NCBI GenBank assembly: GCA_937124585.1
Contig: CAKZKT010000147.1
Span: forward strand, 1-64,000
Direction: 5' to 3'
Length of the DNA stretch: 64,000 nucleotides
From: an uncultured Anaerolineae bacterium
GTDB taxonomy: Bacteria; Chloroflexota; Anaerolineae; CG2-30-64-16
Numbering within the stretch: the stretch's first letter is position 1; every line of letters starts with the position of its first letter. Below, piece by piece: positions 9,105 to 35,964 of the stretch. The notes beneath the pieces were generated by a model. It worked only from the letters and a program-made list of their open reading frames with translations, searched no databases and was not told the origin of the DNA. The position numbers were made by a program, and so were the translations under genes.

Positions 9105-10205
9105 TCAGGCCGCGCGCCATAGCCCCAGAGTCGCCACTTCCACCAGCGCCCGCAGGTTCGCCAGGGGCGTCTGCGGCGGCACCATGTCGCCGGCCGCCAG
9201 AATGTAGCCGTGCGGCCCGCCCTCACGACATTTGCGGATCGCCTCCTGCCGCACCTCCTCCGGCGAACCATTGGCCAGCGTCAACGTGTTGACGCCGCCC
9301 ATCAGGGCAACCCGATGGCCGATGCGACGCCTGGCATCGGCCACCTCGACCCCGCCGAGCGGATCGAGCGGCTCGACGACGTGTGCGCCGGTGTCGGCCA
9401 TCATCTCCAGGATCGGCCGGGAATTGCCGCAGATGTGAATGTAGATCAGGATGCGGTGACGAAAGTGGGCGCAGAATTTGCGATAGGCCGGCAGGCAAAA
9501 CCGCTCGAAGTGTCGCGGGCTGATCAGGCTGGCGCTGGCCGCAGGATCTCCGATGTAGAGCGCATCAATACCGGTCGCCAACAGCTTCTCGGCCCGGCGG
9601 ATGATCGCCTCGGCCTGCAGGTCCATCACCGCGTGCACGAAATCGGGGCGTTCGTAAAAATCCATCATGGCCTGCTCCCGACCCCGCAATGCCGTGTAGG
9701 TGTTCATGGTGATGCCGCCCGGCGCCGAAGCCACGAAGAGGTCGGCCACACGCGCACGCGCGGCGGCGAGGAGCGCCATCTTCTCGTCGGTGAACTGCGC
9801 CACCATCGTCTCCAGCCGCTCACGCGCCTCGGCCAGCGTCTCGATGGCCGGAGCGGGCCGATCGGGCACGAACTCGCCGCCGCCGTGCAGGTCAATGCGG
9901 CCGCTGCGTTCACCGCTCTCGGGGTCGAACACGATCAGCGCATCCTGCTCGCGGCGAACGCGCATCGGCGCCGGCTTGACGAACAAGCGCAATCCGTCGC
10001 AGCCGATCTCTCGCGCCAGACGGATCACGACCTCGTAGATGTATTCCGGCTCCTCGACGCAGCGCCGCATCCCCTCGATCCAGTCGCCGCCGCGGCCGTC
10101 GCCGTACAGGCGCACCGCTACGTCGTGGCAGATCTGCGGCATGGTGGGGATGCGGTCGGTCGGCTCACGCCGCATCGCGGCAGCCATCAGTTGTCGCGAA
10201 TTCAT
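9105..10205 (-). CDS. Uroporphyrinogen decarboxylase/MtaA-like protein
   Basis: The 366-residue protein has a UroD/MtaA-type TIM barrel (RREPTDRIP near the N terminus, IYIHICGNSRPILEMMADTG, and a C-terminal GYILAAGDMVPPQTP). True haem-pathway UroD is unlikely in a sugar operon. The closest biochemical group is the corrinoid methyltransferases MtaA/CmuA, which bind zinc with HxC plus a later Cys. HxC (HICG) is present, but the usual Cys before the VPPxTP loop reads Asp (GD). The start ATG 10205 has GGAGAG upstream and overlaps the aldo/keto reductase stop (ATGA). Function is unknown; a distant homologue occurs at 24603-25730. Confidence 0.75.
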   Translation of the reverse strand: MNSRQLMAAAMRREPTDRIPTMPQICHDVAVRLYGDGRGGDWIEGMRRCVEEPEYIYEVVIRLAREIGCDGLRLFVKPAPMRVRREQDALIVFDPESGERSGRIDLHGGGEFVPDRPAPAIETLAEARERLETMVAQFTDEKMALLAAARARVADLFVASAPGGITMNTYTALRGREQAMMDFYERPDFVHAVMDLQAEAIIRRAEKLLATGIDALYIGDPAASASLISPRHFERFCLPAYRKFCAHFRHRILIYIHICGNSRPILEMMADTGAHVVEPLDPLGGVEVADARRRIGHRVALMGGVNTLTLANGSPEEVRQEAIRKCREGGPHGYILAAGDMVPPQTPLANLRALVEVATLGLWRAA

Positions 10206-11200
10206 GGCGTCTCTCCGGTCGCGGTGCGCGTGGCTCCTTCTGACGCGTCCGTCTGCCACGCCGTGCTGTCGGCCGGCCAGGTGCCCGGATGGAGCTGAGC
10301 CTCATCGTGCACGATGATCTCCCGGATGCGCGCCATCAGGTCGGGCGAGAGGGGCGGCTGCGCTGCGAACGCCAGCGCCTCCTCCAGCTCGCCGATGCGC
10401 GCCGTGCCCACCAGCGCAGTGGCGACGGCCGGATGCGCCAGCACATAGCGATAGGCCAGCGCGGGCAGGCTCAGCGCGGCGGCATCTGCCAGCTTCGCCA
10501 GCCGGGCAATCGCATCCCGCAACTCGGCCAGCTGTGCCGGCAGATACCGATAGCGATGCGTCAGTGTGCCGCGCAGCAGCACCGAGCGCACCACGATGCC
10601 CACGTCCAGGCGCTGCGCCAGCGGCAGGACACGCGTTTCCATCCGGCGATCCACAGCGCTGTACGCGATCTGCAGGCAGTCGTAGCGGCCGTCCTCCAGT
10701 GCCAGCAGCGGCGCCTCCTCGCCGTAGGTGCTGGCGCCGACGTAGCGCACGTGGCCGGCTCGCGCGGCGTCCTGCATGGCGGCGATCAGCTCGCCGCGCC
10801 GGATCTCCTCGGCGGAGGCGCTGTGGAGCAGCAACACATCCAGGTAATCGGTCTGCAGGGCAGCCAGGCTGGTCGCCAGCGACTTCTGCACATGCGCGAC
10901 GAGCGCCCGGCCGCGCACGTCCTCCGGGGCCGGTGCAACCTTGCTGCACAGGATGTACTCGTGACGGCGTGTCTTCAGCGCCCGGCCGATCACCTCCTCG
11001 CTCGTGCCGTAGGCGCGCGCGGTGTCAATGAAATTGACGCCCAGATCGAGCGCCCGATTGAGCAGCCGTGCCGCGGCAGCCTCCTCGGGCCGCAGATGCT
11101 CCCCGGCGACGGGCACGCCGTAATTGAGTCCCAGCTCCACGGTGCCGAGAGAGATCTCCGAGACCTGCAGGCCGGTGCGTCCCAGGCGACGATAGTTCAC
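10202..11200 (-). CDS. Aldo/keto reductase
   Basis: The 332-residue cytosolic NADPH-dependent oxidoreductase starts NYRRLGRTGLQVSEISLGT. It has the catalytic tetrad area GVNFIDTARAYGTSEEVIGRAL (Asp, Tyr) with Lys in ILCSKVAP and His in LLLHSAS. The C-terminal ALVGTARIGELEEALAF is the cofactor-binding stretch. It is likely to oxidise or reduce a sugar-type carbonyl in the surrounding pathway. GTG 11200 is chosen because AGGAGGGG lies immediately upstream; a longer in-frame extension overlaps the preceding SDR gene and looks non-coding. A second AKR of the same type is at 55014-56000. Confidence 0.88.
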   Translation of the reverse strand: MNYRRLGRTGLQVSEISLGTVELGLNYGVPVAGEHLRPEEAAAARLLNRALDLGVNFIDTARAYGTSEEVIGRALKTRRHEYILCSKVAPAPEDVRGRALVAHVQKSLATSLAALQTDYLDVLLLHSASAEEIRRGELIAAMQDAARAGHVRYVGASTYGEEAPLLALEDGRYDCLQIAYSAVDRRMETRVLPLAQRLDVGIVVRSVLLRGTLTHRYRYLPAQLAELRDAIARLAKLADAAALSLPALAYRYVLAHPAVATALVGTARIGELEEALAFAAQPPLSPDLMARIREIIVHDEAQLHPGTWPADSTAWQTDASEGATRTATGETP

Positions 11201-11208
11201 AGCCCCTC

Positions 11209-11997
11209 CTACCACAGAGTCCAGCCGCCGTCCACCAGAATGTTCTCGCCGACGACGTGCGCCGACGCGTCGCTCGCCAGATAGACGACCAGTCCTTTGA
11301 GGTCCCAATCGTTGCCGCTGCGGCCATCGGGCGCCATCGCGACGTAATTGCGCTCGAAGATCGGCTGTTTGCCCGGCGCCCAGAAGCCGCCCGGGCTGAT
11401 GCAGTTGACCCGCACCCCGCGATCACTCCAGGTGGCTGCCAGATAGCGCGTCATGTGGATCAGCCCGGCTTTGGCCACACCGTAGGCGATCGGGTTGCGC
11501 GGGATTTCGGCACCCTCGTAGATGTGCCTGTACGGCGCCACCACGCCGTAGATCGAGCCGATGTTGATGATGCTGCCTTTGCCCTGCCGGAGCATCTGGC
11601 GGCCCACGACCTGGCACAGATAGAACACGCTGTTCAGTGTGGCGTGGATGGTGTATTCCCATGCGGGCGGCGGGAAATCCTCGGGCGCATGGCTGGCTGC
11701 GCCGGCAATCGAATTGACCAGCACATCAATGCGACCCCAGCGCGCCAGCACCGCATCGGCCATAGCCTGCACCGAATCATAGACAGTAGCATCGAGCGGC
11801 ACGGCCATGGCCTGGCGATGCTGCCGGCTGAGCTCAGCTGCTTTGGCCTCGCACTTCGCCAGATCGCGCGAAGCGATCACAACGTGCGCGCCGGCCTCGG
11901 CGAGGGCGGTGGCCATCTGGAAGCCGAGCAGGCCTGCGCCGCCCGCCACCACGGCCACGCGGCCGTCCAGGCTGAAAAGCTCTTGTACCGTGGGCAT
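11209..11997 (-). CDS. Short-chain dehydrogenase/reductase
   Basis: The 262-residue SDR has the NAD(P)-binding motif as GGAGLLG (residues 19-25), the Asn of LVNSIAG, catalytic Ser148 (NIGSIYG), and Tyr172/Lys176 (AYGVAKAG). The C terminus ([19 protein letters not shown]) is the usual classical-SDR ending. The N terminus [17 protein letters not shown] resembles gluconate 5-dehydrogenase-like and KduD-like enzymes, so oxidation of a sugar acid or polyol hydroxyl is likely (inference). ATG 11997 follows AGAGGAG. The AKR start is 8 bp beyond its stop, so the pair is co-transcribed. Confidence 0.88.
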
Positions 11998-12053
11998 GGG
12001 CTTCGCTCCTCTGTGCGGGCCGGCCGCCGAATCGCCCGGCCGGCCCGCAGCCA

Positions 12054-13007
12054 TCACAGGGTGTACCAGCTGAACTCCTCCACCGACGCCGGCCGGATGT
12101 CTGCTGCCAGCGACTCCGACAGGTAGAGCTCGGTGGGCGCCATCTGGATCATCGTCGCCGGGATGAGGGGCGTGGGCGGGGTGAAGGCTGCAAGGCGCAC
12201 AATGAAACGCTGCCAGGAGACCATCGAAACGCCCACCCGAAACGCGTTCCAGGAGCTACGCAGCCGAGCGCCCAGATACTCGGCCGGGCCGATGGTGGCG
12301 CCCTGCGGCGGCACCAGCGACCAGTCGCCGCTCATGCCGAACTCCGGGCCCAGCGAGTTCTGCAGGATGCTGAACGGTGTCAGCTTCACGAGGCGCGGGC
12401 CGATCTTCACCCACTCAGCCATTGGCATGGGCGGAAACGCCTCGGAGCCCGGCTCGATGTAGGCCACGTGGCCCGACCAGCCGATGCCGCCGTAGCAGAC
12501 ATCTGCGCCGCCCAGGTCGGCGATCATCTTGCCGTAATCCCGGAAATTCGCGTTCGTCGGCCCCTGGAAATGGTCTTCCGGCGGCCGCAACGCCGGGTCG
12601 AGCTTGCCGTAGAAGTTCACCTTCATGTTGTACAGGAACGAGTTCGGCCAGCTCTCCGGCGCGATATTGCCGTTCTCATCGGCGTATTCGTCCATGTTGA
12701 AGGTGTAAAGGTGATGGCAGGGCACGCGATACTTGTTGCACAGATAAGCCACCCAGGCATAAAGTGGCTCGGGTTGCGGCAGGATCAACACCAGCCGCCG
12801 GCCCTCATCGGTGGCCTGCTTGATCCGGCCGAAAATGTCGTTGACCAGGCGGAAGGCGAACTCATCATCGCGCAGGATGATGATCTTGAGGTTCGGGTGT
12901 TGGAAGTTTGCCAGCTCCGCGCGTGACACGCGTCGGGCTCGCGCACATGCCTCCTGATCCTGAAACGGGTGCCACGTCGGCATACGATAGGTGAATCCTG
13001 CGAGCAT
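12054..13007 (-). CDS. NagB-like glucosamine-6-phosphate deaminase/isomerase family protein, altered active site
   Basis: The 317-residue protein belongs to the NagB/6-phosphogluconolactonase fold. It keeps FNMDEYAD (D106/E107, matching E. coli NagB D72/E73) and a [15 protein letters not shown] loop (H180, E185, matching H143/E148). The loop residue matching NagB D141 (usually DGH) is Ser178 here. It is also longer than NagB (266 residues), with an extra N-terminal ~35 residues. It may isomerise or deaminate an amino-sugar phosphate different from GlcN6P, or be a non-deaminating relative. ATG 13007 has AGGAGG upstream. The sugar kinase precedes it, giving a plausible phosphorylated substrate. 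Confidence 0.8.
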
Positions 13008-13037
13008 TATGGCCTCCTGAGACAATCCGACGAAATC

Positions 13038-14534
13038 TCAAACGCGCGATTCGGCCGACGGGAAAGCGGCCATATGCGGCCAGAACGCGCGATAGCGCGC
13101 GAACTGCGCCTCGCCAAAGCGCCGATCCGCGGGCATGAACCGCCGCGCATCGGCAAGCACGAGCGGTGCGGCCGCTTCGGCGTGCGCGAAAAGCCCGACC
13201 CCGACACCGGCCAGCACAGCCGCGCCCCAACCGGCTGCCTGCGTCATGGCCGGCACGACGACCTCTCGGCCGGTCACATCGGCCACGATCTGCGGCCAGA
13301 GAGGGCTGCGCCCGGCGCCCCCCACCATCGTCAGCCGGCCGACATCAACGCCGTTCGCCGCCATCTCCTCGATGGCCCAGCGCAGCTCACAGGCCGTCCC
13401 CTCCATCACGGCCCGGCTCAGGTCGGCGCGCGAGTGCGCCAGGGCCAGGCCGGCCCAGCCGCCCCGGCCGCCTGCCGTGGCGCTCGTGTGTCCGCCGGTC
13501 GGCGGATAGAAAAGCAATCCGTGTGCGCCCGGCCCGGCCGCGGCCGCGGCCCGATTGATCACCGCGTAGCGATCCGCGCGCTCCGGGCCGACATCGGCCC
13601 ACAGGTTGTCGGCCAGCCATTCCAGCGCCGCGCCCACTGCGCCCAGGCTGCGGATCGCGCCCCAGCGGCCGGGCACCGCGTGACAGCTCAGCGCCAGGCC
13701 GCTGCGCCGCCCGGCCTCCAGGCTGGCGGGCACGGCCAGCAGCACCCAGGCCGTGCCACAGGAGAGCAGCGTGGCGCCGGCCGCGGTCACGCCCGCGCCG
13801 ACGGCCGCGCAGTACTGATCGTGCGCGCCGTTGAACACCGGCAGCCCGGCCGGCAGGCCGGTGCAAGCCGCCGCGTCGCCGGTCAAACGGCCGATCTGTA
13901 CGGCAGACGATGCGATCGGCGACAGCTGTTCGCGACGAATGCCGGCCAGCTCCAGCAGCCCGTCATCCCAGTCGGCCGTCTCGATGTCGAACAGCTGCGT
14001 GATGCTGGCGTCCGACGGGTTCATGCACCAGCCGCCCGTCAGGCGCCGGCCGATGAAATCGTTGACGAAAGCGAAGCGACGGACTGCCCGAAACCGCTCA
14101 GGCTGATGCCGGCGCAGCCAACGGATATGCTGCAGCGGCAACCCGGCCATCAGCGGCCAGCCGGTGCGGCGATAGATGGCCTCGCCCATGCCGGCCTGAG
14201 CCAGCGCCTCGTACTCTGCCTGCGCACGGCCGTCCATCCAGCTGAGCGCGTTGCCGAGCGGCCGGCCATCTGCATCCAGGGGGATCGTCGTGCCACCCTG
14301 CGACGACTGCGCCAGCGCCAGCAACCGGTCGGCCGGCCGCAGCGCGGCCGCCACGGCGCGCAGCACGGCAACGACGGCCGACCAGAGCGTCTCGGGATCC
14401 TGCTCGACCCAGCCCGGCTGCGGAGTGATCAGGCCGTAGGCGTGGCTGGCCATCGCCTGCAGGTGACCTTCCCGGTCGAAAAGGAAAGCCTTTGTCGCGG
14501 TCGTGCCGACGTCCAGCCCCAGCAACAGCTCCAC
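13038..14534 (-). CDS. FGGY-family carbohydrate kinase (xylulokinase-like)
   Basis: The 498-residue ATP-dependent sugar kinase shows the FGGY/actin-like fold. It has phosphate-1 motif GLDVGTTATKAF at the N terminus, GWVEQDPETLW, and the catalytic-loop area NGAHDQYCAAVGAG. The adenosine motif VGGAGRSPLWPQIVADVTG lies in the C-terminal half. Homologues phosphorylate xylulose, ribulose, gluconate, erythritol and similar substrates; the substrate here is unknown. GTG 14534 is preferred because GGAGGG is 8 nt upstream. It should supply the phosphorylated intermediate for the NagB-like and aldolase proteins encoded next to it. Confidence 0.9.
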   Translation of the reverse strand: MELLLGLDVGTTATKAFLFDREGHLQAMASHAYGLITPQPGWVEQDPETLWSAVVAVLRAVAAALRPADRLLALAQSSQGGTTIPLDADGRPLGNALSWMDGRAQAEYEALAQAGMGEAIYRRTGWPLMAGLPLQHIRWLRRHQPERFRAVRRFAFVNDFIGRRLTGGWCMNPSDASITQLFDIETADWDDGLLELAGIRREQLSPIASSAVQIGRLTGDAAACTGLPAGLPVFNGAHDQYCAAVGAGVTAAGATLLSCGTAWVLLAVPASLEAGRRSGLALSCHAVPGRWGAIRSLGAVGAALEWLADNLWADVGPERADRYAVINRAAAAAGPGAHGLLFYPPTGGHTSATAGGRGGWAGLALAHSRADLSRAVMEGTACELRWAIEEMAANGVDVGRLTMVGGAGRSPLWPQIVADVTGREVVVPAMTQAAGWGAAVLAGVGVGLFAHAEAAAPLVLADARRFMPADRRFGEAQFARYRAFWPHMAAFPSAESRV

Positions 14535-24593: not shown

Positions 24594-24602
24594 TGTGTGC
24601 CC

Positions 24603-25730
24603 ATGGCGATGTCTCTGCGCGAACGGATCCTTGCCGTCTACCGCGGCCAGACGCCCGACGTCGTGCCCTACATGCTCGACCTGTCGCACTGGTTCTATCA
24701 CAAACACCGGCAGCCGTGGGATCTGAGTGTGGCCTACGACGCGCCGGAACATGACCTGATCAATTATCACACCCGGGTCGGCGCCGGGTTCTATCTGCCC
24801 AATCTGGCCGCGTTCTACCGCGTGACCTACGGAAGCGATGTCCAGGCCGAGGTGACGAAAGAAACACGCGACGGCGCGCCGGAGATCGTCTGGCGGCTGA
24901 CGACGCCGCTGGGCAGCATCGAGCGCCGTCGGGTGTGGGAGGAAACCTCCTACTCGTGGGCGATCACCCGCTGGGGCGTGCAAAGCGAGCACGACCTGCG
25001 CATCCTGGGCTATGCATTGGGCTCCCGCACCTACACGCCGCTGTGGGATCGCTATCAGGCCTGGGTGGACGCCGTCGGCGAGACGGGCGTGGTCTATCTG
25101 TCCGCCAGATATAGCGCCATGGGCCATCTCCTGCACTACTGGCTGGGCGTCACCGGTGTCGCCTACGCGGTCGCCGACTGGCCCACCACCCTGCGCGCGG
25201 TAGTGGATCAGATCAACGACAACAATTTGAAGCTGATTGATCTGCTGACCATGTCGCCCGCCGAGATCATCATCATGGGCGATAACTTCTCCGGCGACAT
25301 CCAGCCTCCGCGCTTCTTCGCGCGCTGGTCGCGCGCCTACTATGCGGAAGCGATTCGTCGGCTCCATGCAGCCGGCAAATATGTGGCCGTCCACATAGAC
25401 GGCAAGCTCGCCGGCGCCATCGGCATGATCCGCGACGTGGGCGCGGACTGCGGCGACGCCATCACGCCGGCACCGATGGGCGATCTCACGCCGGCGGCCT
25501 GTCGGCAGGAGGCCGGGCCAGACTTCATCCTATCAGGCGGCGTCCCGCCCAATCTATGGCTGCCAGAGGTGCCGGTCGAGGCGTTCGTGCAGGCCGTGCG
25601 CGTGTGGCTGGAGCTCAGGCGGCACAGCCCCCGCCTCATCGCCAACGCCGGCGACCAGGTGCCGCCCCATGCGGCCGAAGCGCGCATCGAGCTGATGCGC
25701 GATCTGGTCGAGAAGTATGGGCAGTATTGA
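24603..25730 (+). CDS. Divergent UroD/MtaA-like protein
   Basis: The 375-residue protein shares the UroD-like barrel layout with the gene at 9105-10205. It has MSLRERILAVYRGQTPDVVPYM at its N terminus, a central AVHIDGKLAGAIGMIRDVGAD, and a C-terminal LIANAGDQVPPHA. The zinc-type HxC motif of the methyltransferase branch reads HID here, and the later ligand position is also Asp. It may be a metal-poor or non-catalytic relative, or bind a different metal. The ATG at 24603 lies 9 bp past the sialidase-like stop; GTG 24597 and ATG 24609 are alternatives. Function is not known. Confidence 0.7.
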   Translation: MAMSLRERILAVYRGQTPDVVPYMLDLSHWFYHKHRQPWDLSVAYDAPEHDLINYHTRVGAGFYLPNLAAFYRVTYGSDVQAEVTKETRDGAPEIVWRLTTPLGSIERRRVWEETSYSWAITRWGVQSEHDLRILGYALGSRTYTPLWDRYQAWVDAVGETGVVYLSARYSAMGHLLHYWLGVTGVAYAVADWPTTLRAVVDQINDNNLKLIDLLTMSPAEIIIMGDNFSGDIQPPRFFARWSRAYYAEAIRRLHAAGKYVAVHIDGKLAGAIGMIRDVGADCGDAITPAPMGDLTPAACRQEAGPDFILSGGVPPNLWLPEVPVEAFVQAVRVWLELRRHSPRLIANAGDQVPPHAAEARIELMRDLVEKYGQY

Positions 25731-29031: not shown

Positions 29032-29080
29032 TTGACACGCAAACCGGTTTGTGTTATCTTGTATTTATCAAACCGATTTG
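29032..29080 (+). promoter_or_regulatory. Promoter with two LacI-type operators (autoregulation)
   Basis: TTGACA (29032-29037), 17 nt, then TATCTT (29055-29060). The palindrome CAAACCGGTTTG (29040-29051) fills the spacer, and a near copy CAAACCGATTTG lies at 29069-29080, 29 bp further on and just past the start site. CG-centred palindromes of this kind are typical LacI-family operators, so the lacI gene 44 bp downstream probably represses itself. Confidence 0.75.
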
Positions 29081-29123: not shown

Positions 29124-30140
29124 ATGAAACGACCGACCATCTCCGATGTAGCCGCGTATGCCGGCGTCACGAAAAGCACGGTGTCGCACGCACTCAGCGG
29201 CAAGCGCCCCGTGGCGGCCAAGACACGCGCCCGCATTGACCAAGCGATCCGCAGCCTCGGCTATCAACCGCATCCGGTGGCGCAGCGGCTGGCGACCGGC
29301 CGCAGTCGCACGATCGGTTTTGTTTATCCTCTCTACGCTTCAGAGTTCAGTGCCCTTGAGATGAAATTCATCGCAGGTGCGGCTGCGGTCATCAATCAGG
29401 CCAACTACGTGTTTGCCCTGCTCACCCCGCCTGACCGACGGGCCGATAGCCTGACCAGATTTCTGCAAAGCGGATTGCTGGATGGCGTCATCCTGATGCA
29501 GGTACAACTGCACGACCCGCGTGTCGCGATCCTCAGGCGCGCGGAAATCCCCTTCGTCCTGATCGGTCGTTGTTTCGATAATGCCGGCCTGACCTTCATT
29601 GACCTGGATATTGACCTGGCGATCTCTCAATGCGTGGAGCACCTGGTCGCTCTGGGCCATCGTCATCTGGCCTATCTGCGGCTGGACGATCCCGACCTGG
29701 GCTTTGCGGTGCGGGCCAATCAGGCTTATGTCGCGGCTTGCCGACGATACGACCTGCCGATCGTGGCGTCCGCCTGCGCGCTGATCCCTGAAAGCGGAGC
29801 GCAGGTGGCCGCGACGCTGTTGGACGCACACCCTGAGACCACCGCCCTGATCGTCTGGAATGATTTGGCCGCGTGGGGTGCCATGCAGGCGATCCAGGGC
29901 CACGGCCTGCGTATCCCGGCAGATGTGTCCCTGATCTGCTTCGATCTCTCAACTGTCGCCAACATCGTTCCGCTCAGGCCGACCGCGGTGGACATCCGGC
30001 CGCGCGAGATGGCCGCGGAAGCAGCACGAATGCTGCTGGCGCAACTCGCCGCCGACGCAACGACGCCGGTCCAGGTTTTGATGGAGCCGAGGCTCATCGT
30101 CGGCGAGACGACCGCGCCGCCGGCCCGGAGGAGAGCGTAA
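29124..30140 (+). CDS. LacI-family transcriptional regulator
   Basis: The 338-residue repressor has an N-terminal LacI helix-turn-helix and hinge (PTISDVAAYAGVTKSTVSHAL, SLGYQPHPVAQRL). A periplasmic-binding-type sensor domain follows, with TIGFVYPLYASEFSALE, AYLRLDDPDLGFAVR and LIVWNDLAAWGAMQAI. It should sense a sugar or related small molecule. ATG 29124 is taken because it gives the exact family N terminus; an upstream in-frame start lies inside the promoter. Its likely targets are its own promoter and the amidohydrolase-ECF operon 145 bp downstream. Confidence 0.92.
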   Translation: MKRPTISDVAAYAGVTKSTVSHALSGKRPVAAKTRARIDQAIRSLGYQPHPVAQRLATGRSRTIGFVYPLYASEFSALEMKFIAGAAAVINQANYVFALLTPPDRRADSLTRFLQSGLLDGVILMQVQLHDPRVAILRRAEIPFVLIGRCFDNAGLTFIDLDIDLAISQCVEHLVALGHRHLAYLRLDDPDLGFAVRANQAYVAACRRYDLPIVASACALIPESGAQVAATLLDAHPETTALIVWNDLAAWGAMQAIQGHGLRIPADVSLICFDLSTVANIVPLRPTAVDIRPREMAAEAARMLLAQLAADATTPVQVLMEPRLIVGETTAPPARRRA

Positions 30141-30284: not shown

Positions 30285-31484
30285 ATGCGTATAGATGCCC
30301 ACATCCACTTCACCCCGCCCGAAATGGCGGCCGATTTGGCCGCGTTCGCCGAAACGGAACCCTACTGGGGCCTGCTGGTGACGGGCGATGCCGTCAACCA
30401 CACCGTCCAGGGCTGGGCCACGCCGGAACGGATGATCGAGGACATGGATCGGGCCGGCATAGACCGGGTGATCCTGATGGGCGAGTATCGTCAGCGCCAC
30501 GAGGCGTGCGTCGAGCGCAACGACCAGGCGCTCGCCTTCCTGCGCCGCTGGCCCGACCGCATCAGCGCGTTCACCGTGATCCAGCCGAAAGCTGGCGCAC
30601 GCGCGCTCGACGAGCTGGCGCGCTGCCTGGACGCCGGCATGGCGGGCGTCGGCGAGCTTGGCCCCTACGGCCAGGGCTACACCCTCGACGACCCCGACTT
30701 CTTGCGCCTGGTCGAGATGTGCATCCGCCGCAACGTGCCCCTCAACCTGCACGTCAGCGAGGAGATCGGCCACTTCTACCTGGGCAAGAGCACGACACCG
30801 CTGCTGCACTACTACCGGCTGGCATGCCGCTACCCCGAACTCAAGCTGATCCTGGCGCATTGGGGCGGCGGTCTACTCTTCTACGAGCTGATGCCCGAAG
30901 TGCGGCGCAACCTGCGCAATGTCTGGTACGACACGGCCGGCTCGCCGCTGCTTTTCCCGACCGCGGCAATCTTCCGCACGGCGCTGAGCTGTGTGGATCA
31001 CCGCAAGCTGCTCTACGCGTCGGACTATCCGCTCCTGCTCTATCCCCGCCGGCAGACCGAACCCGACTTTCGGCCCTTCATCACCGAGATCGAGGGATTG
31101 GGCCTGGCAGAAGATGTCTACGCCGACATCATGGGACGCAACGCGGCGCGACTGCTCGGCCTGTTGCCGCCCCTCGAAGTGGCCTCACCTCCGCCCAGGC
31201 GACCGGCCCGCAGCGCCATCATCACCGAGATCGCGCCGGGAGCAGCCATGCAGATCACCCGACTGATGGCGGTCAGCGCGGTGGCACAGGCCTGGCCGGC
31301 GACCCAGGCCGTGTTCGAAGGCTACGGCATCCCGTGGCGCGACAGCCCCGTGCCCTACTGGGAGCCGATTGCCCAGGCCGCGGCCGCGCGCGGTCTGGGC
31401 CCGGCCGCTCAGCAGCGGCTGCTGGAGGAACTGAACGCAGCCATCGGCCACGAGGCGGGAAAGGAGGCGGCTATGACCGGATGA
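30285..31484 (+). CDS. Amidohydrolase fused to a DUF1858-like domain
   Basis: This 399-residue protein joins two domains. Residues 1-~305 are an amidohydrolase-2 barrel: HxH in MRIDAHIHF, NLHVSEE, LILAHWGG and the Asp of YASDYPLLL. Residues ~321-391 resemble DUF1858: an ITRLMAVSAVAQAWPATQAV start, EGYGIP, AAAARGL and LLEELNAAIG. The DUF1858 CxxC (normally in GIxCxGC) is replaced by GIPWRDS, so iron or thiol chemistry is unlikely and a ligand-binding role is inferred. ATG 30285 has AGGAGG upstream. It heads the ECF transporter operon, so it probably acts on the compound that is imported. Confidence 0.75.
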   Translation: MRIDAHIHFTPPEMAADLAAFAETEPYWGLLVTGDAVNHTVQGWATPERMIEDMDRAGIDRVILMGEYRQRHEACVERNDQALAFLRRWPDRISAFTVIQPKAGARALDELARCLDAGMAGVGELGPYGQGYTLDDPDFLRLVEMCIRRNVPLNLHVSEEIGHFYLGKSTTPLLHYYRLACRYPELKLILAHWGGGLLFYELMPEVRRNLRNVWYDTAGSPLLFPTAAIFRTALSCVDHRKLLYASDYPLLLYPRRQTEPDFRPFITEIEGLGLAEDVYADIMGRNAARLLGLLPPLEVASPPPRRPARSAIITEIAPGAAMQITRLMAVSAVAQAWPATQAVFEGYGIPWRDSPVPYWEPIAQAAAARGLGPAAQQRLLEELNAAIGHEAGKEAAMTG

Positions 31485-31572
31485 ACGGGGAAATCCCGGC
31501 CACAACCCACGCCCCGCGGGCGCGGCGGATCTCCCTTCGTTTCAGGCTCACACAACACAGGAGGATTGAATT

Positions 31573-32352
31573 ATGGCTACTCCAACCGGCAAGGAACGTC
31601 AAGTCAAATTCCTCGGCGGCGCTGCAGTAGACGGCGCACCGGTCGCTTACATCGTCGTTCTGGCCGCGGTGGCCGCGGCCCTGGCCTTCATTCCATTCTC
31701 CGTCGTTCTGGCTTCGGGCGGCAGCTTCCCGCTGAGCCAGGGCATCCATCCCCTTATCGGCTGGCTGCTCGGGCCGATCGCTGGCGCGGTGGCGTCCGGC
31801 GTCGGCGCTTTGATTGGCGTCTTCCTGGCTCCGCACACAGCCGGTGTGCCGGTGGTCACGGTGTACAGCGCAGCGCTCGCCAGCTTCGCGGCTGGCGCCA
31901 TGGTGCTGGGCGCAAAGCGACGCGGTTGGTGGCTGGTGCTGACCGTGATCTTCGTGATCTGCTGGTTGCTCTTCGCCGGTCGCGCCGTGGTACAGAATGG
32001 CGTAGGCCTCTACGCCGCTATCGCCGGTTCATTCCTCGACTGGTCGGGCATCCTGCTCTTTGCCCTGCCCACGCGTGCTCTGGCCGCCCGTTGGATCAAC
32101 AGCAAGAATCTCGCCTGGGTGGCTGCTGGACTTTTCCTGGGGACCTGGATGGTGGCCGGCGTAACCCACGTTGCCTCGGCTGTTGTCACGTACTTCATGT
32201 TCAACTGGCCTGAGGAGGTCTGGGTGACGCTGATCCCGATCATCCCATTCGAGAACCTCATGCGTTGCCTGACCGGCACGGTGATCGGCACCGGTGTCAT
32301 CGCCGGTCTGCGCGCCATCGGGTTGGTTAAGCCGACGGAGGCGATTTACTAA
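31573..32352 (+). CDS. ECF transporter substrate-binding (S) component, substrate unknown
   Basis: The 259-residue integral membrane protein has about seven or eight hydrophobic segments. Its position directly before fused EcfA-EcfA' and EcfT identifies it as the S component. Small-residue helices (AAVAAALAF, GPIAGAVASGVGALIGVFLAP) fit EcfT contact surfaces. It is longer than vitamin S components (~180-200 residues, six helices). No BioY, ThiT, RibU, FolT or CbiM signature was recognised. AGGAGG lies 8 bp before ATG 31573. The surrounding amidohydrolase and pterin-binding protein suggest a pterin-, corrinoid- or amide-like substrate (inference). Confidence 0.8.
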   Translation: MATPTGKERQVKFLGGAAVDGAPVAYIVVLAAVAAALAFIPFSVVLASGGSFPLSQGIHPLIGWLLGPIAGAVASGVGALIGVFLAPHTAGVPVVTVYSAALASFAAGAMVLGAKRRGWWLVLTVIFVICWLLFAGRAVVQNGVGLYAAIAGSFLDWSGILLFALPTRALAARWINSKNLAWVAAGLFLGTWMVAGVTHVASAVVTYFMFNWPEEVWVTLIPIIPFENLMRCLTGTVIGTGVIAGLRAIGLVKPTEAIY

Positions 32353-32366
32353 AAGCAGATGATGGG

Positions 32367-32490
32367 TTGGTAGGTAACCTGGTAGATTGGTAACCTGGTG
32401 ATGAATGGTTTCCGCAGGCGCTTCCACGTTGCCCGCTATCAATCTACCGGTTTCCCAATCTACCAATTTCTCGATCTACCAGCCTACCAA
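32367..32490. repeat. Long imperfect inverted repeat inside the ECF operon
   Basis: The left arm TTGGTAGG-taac-CTGGTAGAT (32367-32387) pairs with ATCTACCAGCCTACCAA (32474-32490). A second left segment GGTAGATTGGTAACC pairs almost fully with GGTTTCCCAATCTACC (32450-32465). The 155-bp spacer between S component and EcfA thus folds into alternative long stems. No T run follows it. It probably modulates S versus ATPase expression or is a dispersed repeat. Confidence 0.6.
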
Positions 32491-32510
32491 GTCACCTCAA
32501 AGAGGCGTTG

Positions 32511-34247
32511 ATGACAGAACCTATCGCCATCCTGGATCAGGTTTCCTACATGTATCCGCGTTCGGTCGAACCGGTGCTGCGCGATATCTCGCTCGAAGTA
32601 TACCGCGGAGAATTCCTGGGGCTGATTGGGCCGACGGGAGCAGGCAAAAGCACACTGTGCCTGACCTTCAACGGCATCGTGCCGCAGTTCTTCGGCGGTC
32701 GCTTCTTCGGCAGTGTCACGGTAGCCGGATTGGACACTCTCGAGCACCCGATCAGCCACCTGGCGGCTCATGTCGGTGCGGTGTTCGAGGACCCGGAGAC
32801 CCAATTGATTGCCACCTCGGTGGAAAACGAGATCGCTTTTGCGCTCGAAAACCTACGAGTGCCGCGCGAGGAGATCGCAGCGCGCATTCCGCGCGTACTG
32901 CAAGCTGTACGCCTGGAAGGGACCGAGAAGAAGCATCCCCACGAGCTATCCGGCGGTCAAAAGCAGCGCCTGGCGATTGCTGCGGCCCTGGCGGTGCAGC
33001 CCAGTCTGCTGATCCTGGACGAGCCGACCTCGCAGCTCGACCCTGTCGGCAGCCAGGAGGTGTTCGCCACAGTGCACGAACTCAACAAAGAGCTGGGCAT
33101 GACCATCATCATGGCGAGCCATGCGGCTGAGGAGATGGCCGAGTATGCCGATCGGTTGGTGCTGTTATCGCATGGCGTCATCGAGGCGATCGGCACTCCG
33201 GATCAGCTTTATGCAGAAATCGAGAAGCTTGAACACCACGGATTACGGCCGCCGCAGGTCGCCCGCACTTTCTATCTGATTCATCAGGCTAACCGGCTGC
33301 CCCACCCGGCGCCGGTGCGCCTCAAAGAGGGCATAGCTGGCCTCCACAGCCTGGCACAATCCTGTCGGATCATCCCGCCTGATCACCTACCCCCGCCCAA
33401 CGTACACGAGGGAACACCACTCCTCTCGGTCAAAAATCTCAAACATGTTTACAGCGACGGCACCGAGGCGTTGCACGGCGTCTCCCTCGACATTCACGAG
33501 GGCGAGTACGTGCTCATTATCGGCCAAAACGGCGCGGGCAAGAGCACATTGGTGAAGCATTTCCTCAAGCTGCTGGAACCGACCGAAGGGATCGTCACCG
33601 TCGGCGGCATTGACACCCGGCAGCTCACCATGAGCGACCTGGCCCGGCGCATCGGTTACGTGGCGCAGAACCCCGACAATCAGATCTTCAACGCCAGCGT
33701 TGTCGAAGAAGTCTCGTTCGCCCTGCGCAACCTGGGCTATCCCAAAGCTGAAGTCGAGGCACGCGTACGCGAAACCCTGACTGCCATGGGCCTGTGGGAG
33801 CAGCGCGACCAGCACCCGCTCTCGCTGCCCAAGGGGGATCGCGCCCGTGTGGTGATCGCTGCGATCCTCGCCATGAAGCCTGAAATCATCATCTTCGACG
33901 AGCCGACCACTGGTCAGGACTTCCAGGGCGCGCGCTATATCCTGGATATCAGCCGCGAGCTGCATCGCATGGGCAAGACGGTCATCGTGATCACCCATCA
34001 TCTATATTTGATGCCGGAGTACGCGGAGCGTGTCATCGTGATGGGCAAGGGCACGATCCTGCTCGATGCGCCGATCCGCATGGCCTATCATCAAGTCGAG
34101 CTCCTGCGCTCCACCTTCCTCTCGCCGCCCCAGGCCGTATCGCTGGCGCAGGAGCTGACGCGGTGGGATGGCCGCGATTTCCCCCTACTGACACCCGAAG
34201 AAGTGGCTGCCTGCTTCTCGTGCAGCCAGGACAGAGGTGACCGATGA
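32511..34247 (+). CDS. ECF transporter ATPase, EcfA-EcfA' fused in one chain
   Basis: This 578-residue protein contains two complete ABC ATPase domains. The first has Walker A GPTGAGKST, signature LSGGQKQR and Walker B LLILDEPTSQLD. The second has Walker A GQNGAGKST and LIFDEPTTGQD, while its signature reads LSLPKGDRARV instead of LSGGQ. The altered second signature implies one normal and one degenerate composite ATP site. In most ECF systems EcfA and EcfA' are separate ~280-residue proteins. ATG 32511 has AAAGAGG upstream. The stop overlaps the EcfT start by ATGA. Confidence 0.9.
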   Translation: MTEPIAILDQVSYMYPRSVEPVLRDISLEVYRGEFLGLIGPTGAGKSTLCLTFNGIVPQFFGGRFFGSVTVAGLDTLEHPISHLAAHVGAVFEDPETQLIATSVENEIAFALENLRVPREEIAARIPRVLQAVRLEGTEKKHPHELSGGQKQRLAIAAALAVQPSLLILDEPTSQLDPVGSQEVFATVHELNKELGMTIIMASHAAEEMAEYADRLVLLSHGVIEAIGTPDQLYAEIEKLEHHGLRPPQVARTFYLIHQANRLPHPAPVRLKEGIAGLHSLAQSCRIIPPDHLPPPNVHEGTPLLSVKNLKHVYSDGTEALHGVSLDIHEGEYVLIIGQNGAGKSTLVKHFLKLLEPTEGIVTVGGIDTRQLTMSDLARRIGYVAQNPDNQIFNASVVEEVSFALRNLGYPKAEVEARVRETLTAMGLWEQRDQHPLSLPKGDRARVVIAAILAMKPEIIIFDEPTTGQDFQGARYILDISRELHRMGKTVIVITHHLYLMPEYAERVIVMGKGTILLDAPIRMAYHQVELLRSTFLSPPQAVSLAQELTRWDGRDFPLLTPEEVAACFSCSQDRGDR

Positions 34248-35095
34248 GCATGATGCGCTTCCAGACGGTTGAGCGGGACTCCTTCTTCACCCGCATGGAC
34301 TTCCGGCCCAAGCTGGTGATGATGACGGTGATCAGCATTATCGCCTTCGTATGGGAAAGTCCGGCAGCGGGCGGGCTGTTGACCCTCGTTGTCGTCGTGG
34401 CCTCGCTGCTGGCCGGCGTCAAGACGGGCTACATCCGCATGGTGATCACCATCATGATCCCATTCTACCTGCTGCTGCTGTTGACGCACGGCTTCTTCAA
34501 CGTGGACCAGGTCAAGGCACTGACGGGCAAGACCGAACTGACCACCCTGTTCATGTTCCCCACCACATGGCCCGTGATCGGCGGCGGTCGGATGTCGGTG
34601 GAAGGCGTGCTCTACGGTCTCAACGTTATCTTCAAGACCCTCACCCTGGTGCTCGTCATTCCGCTCGGTATCTTCACCACCGAAGTGGATAAATTCATCG
34701 TCGGCATGGTGCGTGCCCGCGTCCCCTACAAGCTTGCCTTCATCTTCTCGGCCACGCTGCGCTTCGTACCGCTTCTCTTCTCCGAGATCCAGGGAATCAT
34801 CGAAGCGCAACGTCTGCGCGGCCTGGCAGTGGAGAAAATGGGGCCGCTCAAGCGTGTGCAAGTCTACTCCAAGGTCGCCGTGCCTCTCATTCTGGGCGCG
34901 ATGGTCAAATCGCAGATGCTCGAAGTGGTGCTTCAATCGAAGGCCTTTACCGGCAGCCCCGACCGCACCTATCTGCACGAGTCGGTGCTGGGGCCGCTGG
35001 ACTACCTGATGATCGCCTTTTTCGTCCTCCTACTGATCGCGGCCGTCGTCGCCTACCTCACCGTCGGCTTTGGCAAGTTCGGGGGGCCGTTCTGA
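34244..35095 (+). CDS. ecfT: ECF transporter transmembrane component EcfT
   Basis: The 283-residue protein links the ATPases to the S component. It has about five membrane helices and two cytoplasmic coupling helices. The Ala-Arg-Gly-type motif of the first helix is seen in GIIEAQRLRGLAVEK, and the second coupling region is QMLEVVLQSKAFTGSPDRTYL. The N-terminal segment DFRPKLVMMTVISIIAFVW is the standard EcfT opening. Translation is coupled to the ATPase (ATGA), and the MeTr-like gene begins 2 bp after its stop. Confidence 0.9.
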   Translation: MSMMRFQTVERDSFFTRMDFRPKLVMMTVISIIAFVWESPAAGGLLTLVVVVASLLAGVKTGYIRMVITIMIPFYLLLLLTHGFFNVDQVKALTGKTELTTLFMFPTTWPVIGGGRMSVEGVLYGLNVIFKTLTLVLVIPLGIFTTEVDKFIVGMVRARVPYKLAFIFSATLRFVPLLFSEIQGIIEAQRLRGLAVEKMGPLKRVQVYSKVAVPLILGAMVKSQMLEVVLQSKAFTGSPDRTYLHESVLGPLDYLMIAFFVLLLIAAVVAYLTVGFGKFGGPF

Positions 35096-35097
35096 CC

Positions 35098-35964
35098 ATG
35101 ACACAACTCGCCGGATCGCGTTTTTCGGTCGAATTCGGCCCCGGCCGACCGGTGCTGCTGATCAACGACCAGCTTCGTGTTTACGATCAATCGCCGCAAG
35201 TGCTGGCCGAGCTCGCCGTCGGGCGTTGCGACACGCTGGTTCAGTTGGCACGCGAAGGTGAGGCGGCCGGCTGTCGCGCCGTAGACATCCTGATTGATCA
35301 TCCCGCGCTGGTCGAGGCCGACGTTCTGCCACTGGTCTTTCGAGCGGTTGACGCTGCCCTCGGCTGCCCGATTTCGCTCGACTCCCGCAACCCGCTCGCC
35401 ATCGAAGCTGCGCTGGACGGCTATACGGGCAAGGCGCTGCTGAATTCGATCACTGGCGAGCGGGAACTACTGGATACTCTGCTGCCGCTGGTCGCCAAAT
35501 ACCGGCTGGCCGTTGTAGCGTTGTTGGTAAACGATGTGCATGTGCCGCAGACCTGGCAGGAACGGCTAGCCGTGGCGCGCGACATTCTGGCACGCACCGA
35601 CGCCATCGGCATTCCGCGCGAAGACATTGTCTTCGACGCCGTATGTATGGCCGCCAGCACTCTCCCAGGCTCCATGCAAGTCACACTCGATACTCTTGCC
35701 GCCATTCACGGCGAGCTGGGCATGAGCACCCTTCTGGGCATCGGCAACGCCGGCTTCGGTATGCCCGATCAGACGCGCATTGACCTGGCCTATCTGATCG
35801 CGGCCGTACCCTGGGGGCTGGATGCTGCGCTGGTGGATTATCACACCGAGAACCTGCTGGTCGCATCTCGCGCGATTGACTTCCTGAGCGGCCGTGATCC
35901 GACCGGTGCCGGATACATCAGCCTTTACCGGCCAGCTCGACCACGCCGGTCGCGCTCCGGGTAG
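35098..35964 (+). CDS. MeTr-like pterin-binding (methyltetrahydrofolate methyltransferase) protein
   Basis: The 288-residue TIM barrel matches the pterin-binding domain of methyltetrahydrofolate:corrinoid methyltransferases (AcsE/MetH type). Matches are SLDSRNPLAIEAALDGYTGKA followed by LLNSITGE, the D-containing strand DIVFDAVC, and LGIGNAGFGMPDQTR where the family has SNVSFGLP-R. The N-terminal motif IGERIN of the family reads LINDQLRV. No corrinoid protein gene is visible nearby. Location 2 bp behind ecfT ties it to the transported compound: it may bind an imported folate/pterin or use it as methyl donor or acceptor. Catalysis is unproven. Confidence 0.75.
   Translation: MTQLAGSRFSVEFGPGRPVLLINDQLRVYDQSPQVLAELAVGRCDTLVQLAREGEAAGCRAVDILIDHPALVEADVLPLVFRAVDAALGCPISLDSRNPLAIEAALDGYTGKALLNSITGERELLDTLLPLVAKYRLAVVALLVNDVHVPQTWQERLAVARDILARTDAIGIPREDIVFDAVCMAASTLPGSMQVTLDTLAAIHGELGMSTLLGIGNAGFGMPDQTRIDLAYLIAAVPWGLDAALVDYHTENLLVASRAIDFLSGRDPTGAGYISLYRPARPRRSRSG

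Follow-up and report, generated by a model that had tools for sequence, protein, structure and literature searches.

Energy-coupling factor (ECF) transporters are importers of vitamins and metal ions that are needed in traces. In group I systems such as Thermotoga RibU and BioMNY, a dedicated S component is encoded together with the ATPases A and A' and the coupling component T (available part of PMC6828968; S structure, PMC5037267). Reductive uric acid degradation is encoded by the cluster XdhD-YgfK/UacX-SsnA-HyuA-YgeW-YgeY-YgeX, which is reported in variant form in Chloroflexota (available part of PMC12507026); in that part of the account we met no ECF transporter. Here we describe an operon of an uncultured Anaerolineae bacterium (Chloroflexota) that is built around a group I ECF importer whose S component belongs to no named vitamin family. 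It lies in a 64,000-nucleotide stretch of DNA, referred to as the window, from contig CAKZKT010000147.1 (C147) of a 4.83 Mb draft genome (G000).

Open reading frame calling and hidden Markov model scans placed six genes in one direction between 29.0 and 36.0 kb: a LacI-family regulator, an Amidohydro_2 hydrolase, the S component, a fused A-A' ATPase, EcfT and a MeTr-like protein of the pterin-binding family. An earlier note, made from the letters of this DNA, had named these same genes in this order and on this strand behind the LacI regulator, and all are present. It had also called them tightly packed, which holds at the EcfA-EcfT junction (4 bp overlap) and the EcfT-MeTr junction (2 bp gap) but not between LacI and the amidohydrolase (144 bp), the amidohydrolase and S (88 bp) or S and EcfA (158 bp).

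The transporter stands for a genuine class of group I ECF importers that has as yet no name. Our tentative reading of the whole locus is that of an importer for a purine- or hydantoin-type nitrogen heterocycle with LacI-type autoregulation. We infer this ligand class because the genes that recur beside the S component encode enzymes of families that degrade purine-like ring compounds, and the reaction of the hydrolase is put forward in the same conditional sense.

An S component by fold in no named vitamin family

The S gene (31573..32352, plus strand) encodes 259 amino acids with a weak match to PF12822 (E 0.0012). Its conserved residues include H199, Y207, W212, W217, E227 and R231. Against TIGR04518, the FolT family, the window protein scored 15.8 bits (cut-off 60); weak matches to this model in 13 of 17 S-family members (best E 1e-5) all fell below the cut-off, and ten of the 17 gave sub-threshold matches to PF07155 (RibU). 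TIGR04518, PF12822, PF07155 and TIGR02359 were the best sub-threshold families of the members, and none of the curated cut-offs of vitamin S families in Pfam and NCBIfam (FolT, RibU, ThiW and others) was passed. The view of the earlier note that no known ECF vitamin family fits this protein, and that the transporter is undescribed, is thereby borne out: S groups with no named vitamin family.

A sequence search of the PDB with S or an S profile returned no relative. An AlphaFold2 model built from 50 homologues (mean predicted local distance difference test score, pLDDT, 88.8; predicted template modelling score, pTM, 0.86) was used in Foldseek, where the credible top PDB matches were all solved S components: TmRibU, BioY, ThiT, FolT and PanT. 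Foldseek E-values were weak, with the best, to TmRibU, at 5.6e-3 (probability 1.00; template modelling (TM) score 0.68 by target length; FolT 5d0y, TM 0.70), and probabilities were mostly 0.9-1.0. Because these top matches are solved S components, the window protein is an S component by its predicted membrane fold, and it is encoded with A, A' and T. Riboswitches as a route to the ligand were dropped, since Rfam searches around S in 20 loci yielded no riboswitch and a tRNA as the sole match.

The fused EcfA-A' ATPase (32511..34247, plus strand) matches TIGR04520 and TIGR04521, both over cut-off. Its first half has the LSGGQ signature, which in the second half is replaced by LSLPKGDRARV. Nearly all members shown have KGDR or a near variant, and not GGQ, as the second ABC signature in A', and this substitution suggests two unequal ATP sites. 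As a private hallmark of the class the degenerate signature was rejected, being found too in A' of some distant relatives. EcfT (34244..35095, plus strand) matches PF02361 over cut-off.

The S-AA'-T core occurs in four phyla

A scan of a genome collection covering 84,980 species returned 65 S loci in Chloroflexota, Cyanobacteriota, Verrucomicrobiota and Myxococcota, with Microcystis, Pseudanabaena, Nodosilinea and the spheroid-body endosymbionts of Epithemia and Rhopalodia among the cyanobacterial carriers. S, AA' and T occur together in 35 of the 65 loci and in all four phyla; S-AA'-T is the conserved core. Within the class of the window's genome the pattern is patchy: among 298 genomes, S is present at 44% identity or above in 17 and in more remote form in a dozen others, and the window's own family yielded no S in its nine other genomes.

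The reduced genomes of the nitrogen-fixing diatom endosymbionts of Epithemia and Rhopalodia (L117, L124, L132; at about 9977-13414) hold a complete S-AA'-T set, and its retention there implies that the substrate probably matters to the symbiosis. Ten genomes of Pseudanabaena and relatives (L119, L121-L123, L125, L126, L129, L140, L158, L159) have S without AA'-T, divergent to a PhnD-like phosphite/phosphonate-type ABC transporter with substrate-binding protein, ATPase and permease. The Microcystis loci L106-L111, L150 and L160 have S alone beside housekeeping genes, with no AA'-T within the locus. A distant S homologue (L214, G059:C181, 1917-7477) stands in an operon that includes a LacI regulator of its own, and a CitG-family gene (PF01874) directly follows it.

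Homologues of purine-degradation genes recur beside S

In five Chloroflexota loci (L099, L101, L102, L138, L142), a gene or gene pair for an Xdh-like 2Fe-2S/Mo hydroxylase follows EcfT on the same strand. These proteins are 67-91% identical to one another, and their loci are spread over two or more branches of the S tree; in L102 (G174), two Xdh genes are placed directly after a MeTr-like gene. SsnA-like aminohydrolases are encoded near S in L112, L134 and L143, and the L134 copy adjoins a DHO_dh-4Fe4S protein, a pairing of families that is also that of SsnA and UacX in reductive uric acid degradation (available part of PMC12507026). In the remote relative L054, overlapping genes on one strand encode a dihydropyrimidinase, EcfT, A, A', an M20 hydrolase and S; the dihydropyrimidinase, which heads this operon, scores 557 bits against TIGR02033 (cut-off 393).

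The window's genome itself carries, on another contig (L219, G000:C121:10500-30300), a cluster encoding Xdh (a 58% homologue of the Xdh beside S), XdhB, a 5'-deoxyadenosine/8-oxoguanine-deaminase-like protein, YgeY (over the PRK13004 cut-off), a YgeW-like protein, a HyuA-like dihydropyrimidinase, an SsnA-like protein and AOR. No YgfK, UacX or YgeX was identified in it. By its gene content the cluster is likely a variant of reductive purine degradation.

A LacI-type regulator with palindromes in its own promoter

The regulator (29124..30140, plus strand; PF00356/PF13377) probably starts at ATG 29124, an alternative TTG start at 29049 falling within the promoter/operator region. Upstream lies a sigma-70-like promoter, TTGACA-17-TATCTT (29032..29060, plus strand), with 10/12 consensus matches, a call made from the consensus alone (2 found against 1.7 expected in shuffles). 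A pattern search gave two candidate LacI-type operators on the plus strand: the perfect palindrome CAAACCGGTTTG in the promoter spacer (29040..29051) and CAAACCGATTTG just 3' of the -10 box (29069..29080). Nowhere else in the 4.83 Mb genome is CAAACCGRTTTG matched, and the reversed control pattern has 0 matches there. With palindromes at 29040 and 29069 overlapping the regulator's own promoter, the arrangement has the look of an autoregulated LacI gene heading an operon, and control by LacI would extend to the downstream genes.

Two neighbours with different ties to the transporter

The amidohydrolase (30285..31484, plus strand) is an Amidohydro_2 metal-dependent hydrolase (PF04909, E 7e-33) whose C-terminal tail weakly matches TIGR03980, a DUF1858-like model (E 0.018). 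None of 13 full-length sequences has a cysteine pair in the tail, and the window tail has no cysteine at all; it is therefore not a redox DUF1858 of the hybrid-cluster-associated redox disulfide kind. Full-length orthologues occur in 13 other genomes of the class, in other families, where they stand alone and no close S gene is present; being independent of the transporter in this way, the DUF1858 form was rejected as its marker. The link between amidohydrolase and transporter proposed in the earlier note stands in a broader form, as each of the three Verrucomicrobiota loci has an Amidohydro_2 gene 5' of S in the same orientation, adjacent to S in L153 and L161 and one gene away from it in L154. 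These proteins and the window clade form one supergroup (100/99 support) with a QGWAT motif. They fall on different branches of it, so the pairing either is old or arose twice.

The MeTr-like protein (35098..35964, plus strand) matches PF00809 over cut-off but scores 171 bits against NF005719, below its cut-off of 259. Positions D75, N96, D160 and N199, which we take to be pterin contacts of Moorella MeTr, are kept as D95, N116, D180 and N217. Among further positions to which we presume a role in that enzyme, R207, S198 and Q202 are lost, and the GERIN motif has become NDQL. The earlier note had linked this gene to the transporter, a link it would have given up if the gene were not conserved there; a MeTr-like gene lies 3' of EcfT in one of the 35 complete S-AA'-T loci besides the window (L102/L036, both G174), and the link falls. 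The remote S homologue L052 adjoins a different MeTr homologue.

The closest MeTr-like relatives in the class (43-56% identity) lie beside an MttB-type methyltransferase, a corrinoid protein, sugar ABC transporters and GlcD/GlcF-like oxidases, and other close relatives beside an E2-like protein and a dehydrogenase, with these neighbours labelled by eye from their sequences. No MttB was found in the window's genome, and a reading as corrinoid demethylase acting through MttB was rejected on that ground. No B12-binding domain of the kind expected in a corrinoid partner of MeTr was found in the window; three other MeTr paralogues of the genome (C42, C51, C154) each have such a domain no more than about 4 kb away. 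Viral contigs held no relative of the protein. Because the gene is rare beside EcfT, its relatives have other partners, and the genome and window lack MttB and a B12-binding domain, respectively, we treat it as a lineage-specific addition.

Weighing the possible ligands

Import of a purine- or hydantoin-type compound accords with the neighbourhood counts. Of 29 Chloroflexota S loci, 9 have homologues of the C121 cluster proteins, as does 1 of 23 comparison loci (Fisher p 0.016). At the genome level, Xdh is present in 9 of 17 genomes with S and 19 of 281 without (p 2e-6), an enrichment confounded by kinship, with most matches in one family (f50). Further results also weigh against this assignment. 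The window operon has no Xdh, SsnA, HyuA, YgeW or YgeY gene and is not itself a purine-degradation cluster; the SsnA-like protein alone was not enriched genome-wide (p 0.30) and was rejected as a genome-wide companion of S; purine genes lie within reach of 0 of 31 cyanobacterial S loci. Xanthine dehydrogenases have a GGKE motif with a purine-binding Glu, in place of which the Xdh-like enzyme has Asp (GGKDD), and its best PDB matches are aldehyde oxidoreductases. The Verrucomicrobiota deaminase-like proteins are 27-28% identical to the deaminase of the genome's own cluster, the majority of S loci have no informative neighbour, and the riboswitch search across 20 loci came back empty. A literature search, with most subscription journals outside it, found nothing relevant on ECF transporters with nucleobase, xanthine or hydantoin.

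It is unlikely that the ligand of S is instead an ordinary vitamin or its precursor, of a flavin-, thiamine- or pantothenate-like kind, and that the neighbours are incidental: all characterised fold relatives of S bind vitamins, TmRibU being the best PDB match, and the cyanobacterial and endosymbiont loci are free of catabolic neighbours, as would suit a vitamin, but no curated vitamin family was matched, no vitamin riboswitch was found near the S genes tested, and catabolic neighbours recur in Chloroflexota and Verrucomicrobiota. We regard as rather improbable a local carbohydrate- or hydroxy-acid-catabolic unit in which S imports a sugar-derived compound and is partnered by GH31, glycolate-oxidase genes and LacI. 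The regulator type would fit, as would the GH31 glycosidase gene that continues the series 72 bp 3' of the MeTr-like gene, the GlcF/E/D genes adjoining it, a GH31 gene just 5' of S in L112, LutABC-like genes ahead of S in L103/L104, and the PfkB, SIS and sugar or peptide ABC genes in the vicinity of distant S homologues. GH31 adjacency is limited to two loci, however, sugar genes ring the entire 84 kb island and not the operon in particular, and we know of no ECF transporter that imports sugars.

The cycle put forward in the earlier note, in which S takes up a pterin-like amide for cleavage by the amidohydrolase and for use or salvage of its pterin part by the MeTr-like protein, appears quite unlikely, as do folate- or corrinoid-related ligands. 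They had been inferred from the MeTr-like gene, whose position 2 bp after EcfT and four kept pterin contacts would suit such a cycle, as would the weak FolT-family likeness of S, which leaves a pteridine some probability as ligand, and the MeTr homologue beside the distant L052. Set against these are the single other locus with MeTr beside EcfT, the changes at S198, Q202, R207 and GERIN, relatives that keep company with MttB and corrinoid proteins, which were not found in this genome and window, respectively, and scores of S under every folate-family cut-off. The recurrent neighbours point towards a purine- or hydantoin-type heterocycle.

With such a ligand, the operon might work as follows. 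An autoregulated LacI-type repressor would lead it, with a group I ECF importer (dedicated S, fused A-A', EcfT) as its core. S would capture the heterocycle outside the membrane and deliver it to the ATP-driven T-A-A' module, and the compound would be opened hydrolytically inside the cell, a step for which Amidohydro_2 is the likely local enzyme, while the separate Xdh-deaminase-YgeY-YgeW-HyuA-SsnA-like cluster is likely to provide the route from there on. LacI may be induced by the ligand or a product, and the MeTr-like protein would have joined later in this lineage.

More broadly, one may speculate, with some reserve, that there is a widespread unnamed ECF class dedicated to nucleobases or hydantoins as nitrogen source, not to trace vitamins, and kept even in reduced genomes of nitrogen-fixing diatom endosymbionts. 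With carriers in four phyla, bloom-forming Microcystis and obligate diatom endosymbionts among them, this S family in no named class makes an obvious target. Should its ligand prove to be a purine or hydantoin, the range of ECF importers would widen to nitrogen compounds of catabolism, and lineages that degrade purines could be traced through the S family.

Other features of the window and genome

Between the S and EcfA genes lies a strong hairpin with short repeats (32362..32490, no strand assigned; RNA fold z -4.3 for 32353-32510). The window also encodes two URO-D superfamily proteins, at 9105-10259 (minus strand) and 24597-25730 (plus strand), the former with sub-threshold likeness to the MtaA/CmuA methylcobamide methyltransferases. 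Seven EcfT-type genes are present in G000, so several independent ECF systems coexist in this genome.

Comparison with described systems

The MeTr-like protein shares with MeTr, the methyl-tetrahydrofolate:corrinoid/iron-sulfur protein methyltransferase (1f6y, 2yci), the fold family and four pterin-contact residues, and differs from it in its score below the NF005719 cut-off, the lost GERIN motif and the corrinoid partner not found nearby. With the reductive uric acid cluster, as far as given in the available part of PMC12507026, the likeness lies in the enzyme families that accompany S in other genomes and make up the C121 cluster, whereas the window operon carries none of its genes. The chloroplast/cyanobacterial ABCI10-ABCI12 ECF transporter, which has separate A subunits and no assigned substrate according to the available part of PMC6828968, was set aside as the same system, A and A' being fused here. 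Folate-family S components (TIGR04518) and RibU (PF07155) are the best sub-threshold sequence matches of the family's members, the window S standing far below the folate-family cut-off; its predicted fold matches the RibU, FolT, ThiT and PanT structures. Relative to group I ECF transporters in general, the window S stands apart by its length of 259 amino acids, its N-terminal GEER-V...DGAP motif and its place in no named family, and the ATPase by the fusion of A and A' and by KGDR in place of GGQ in the second signature. The co-encoding of S, A-A' and T, and the Q-helix motifs PETQL and PDNQI in the two ATPase halves, are what the locus has in common with that group.

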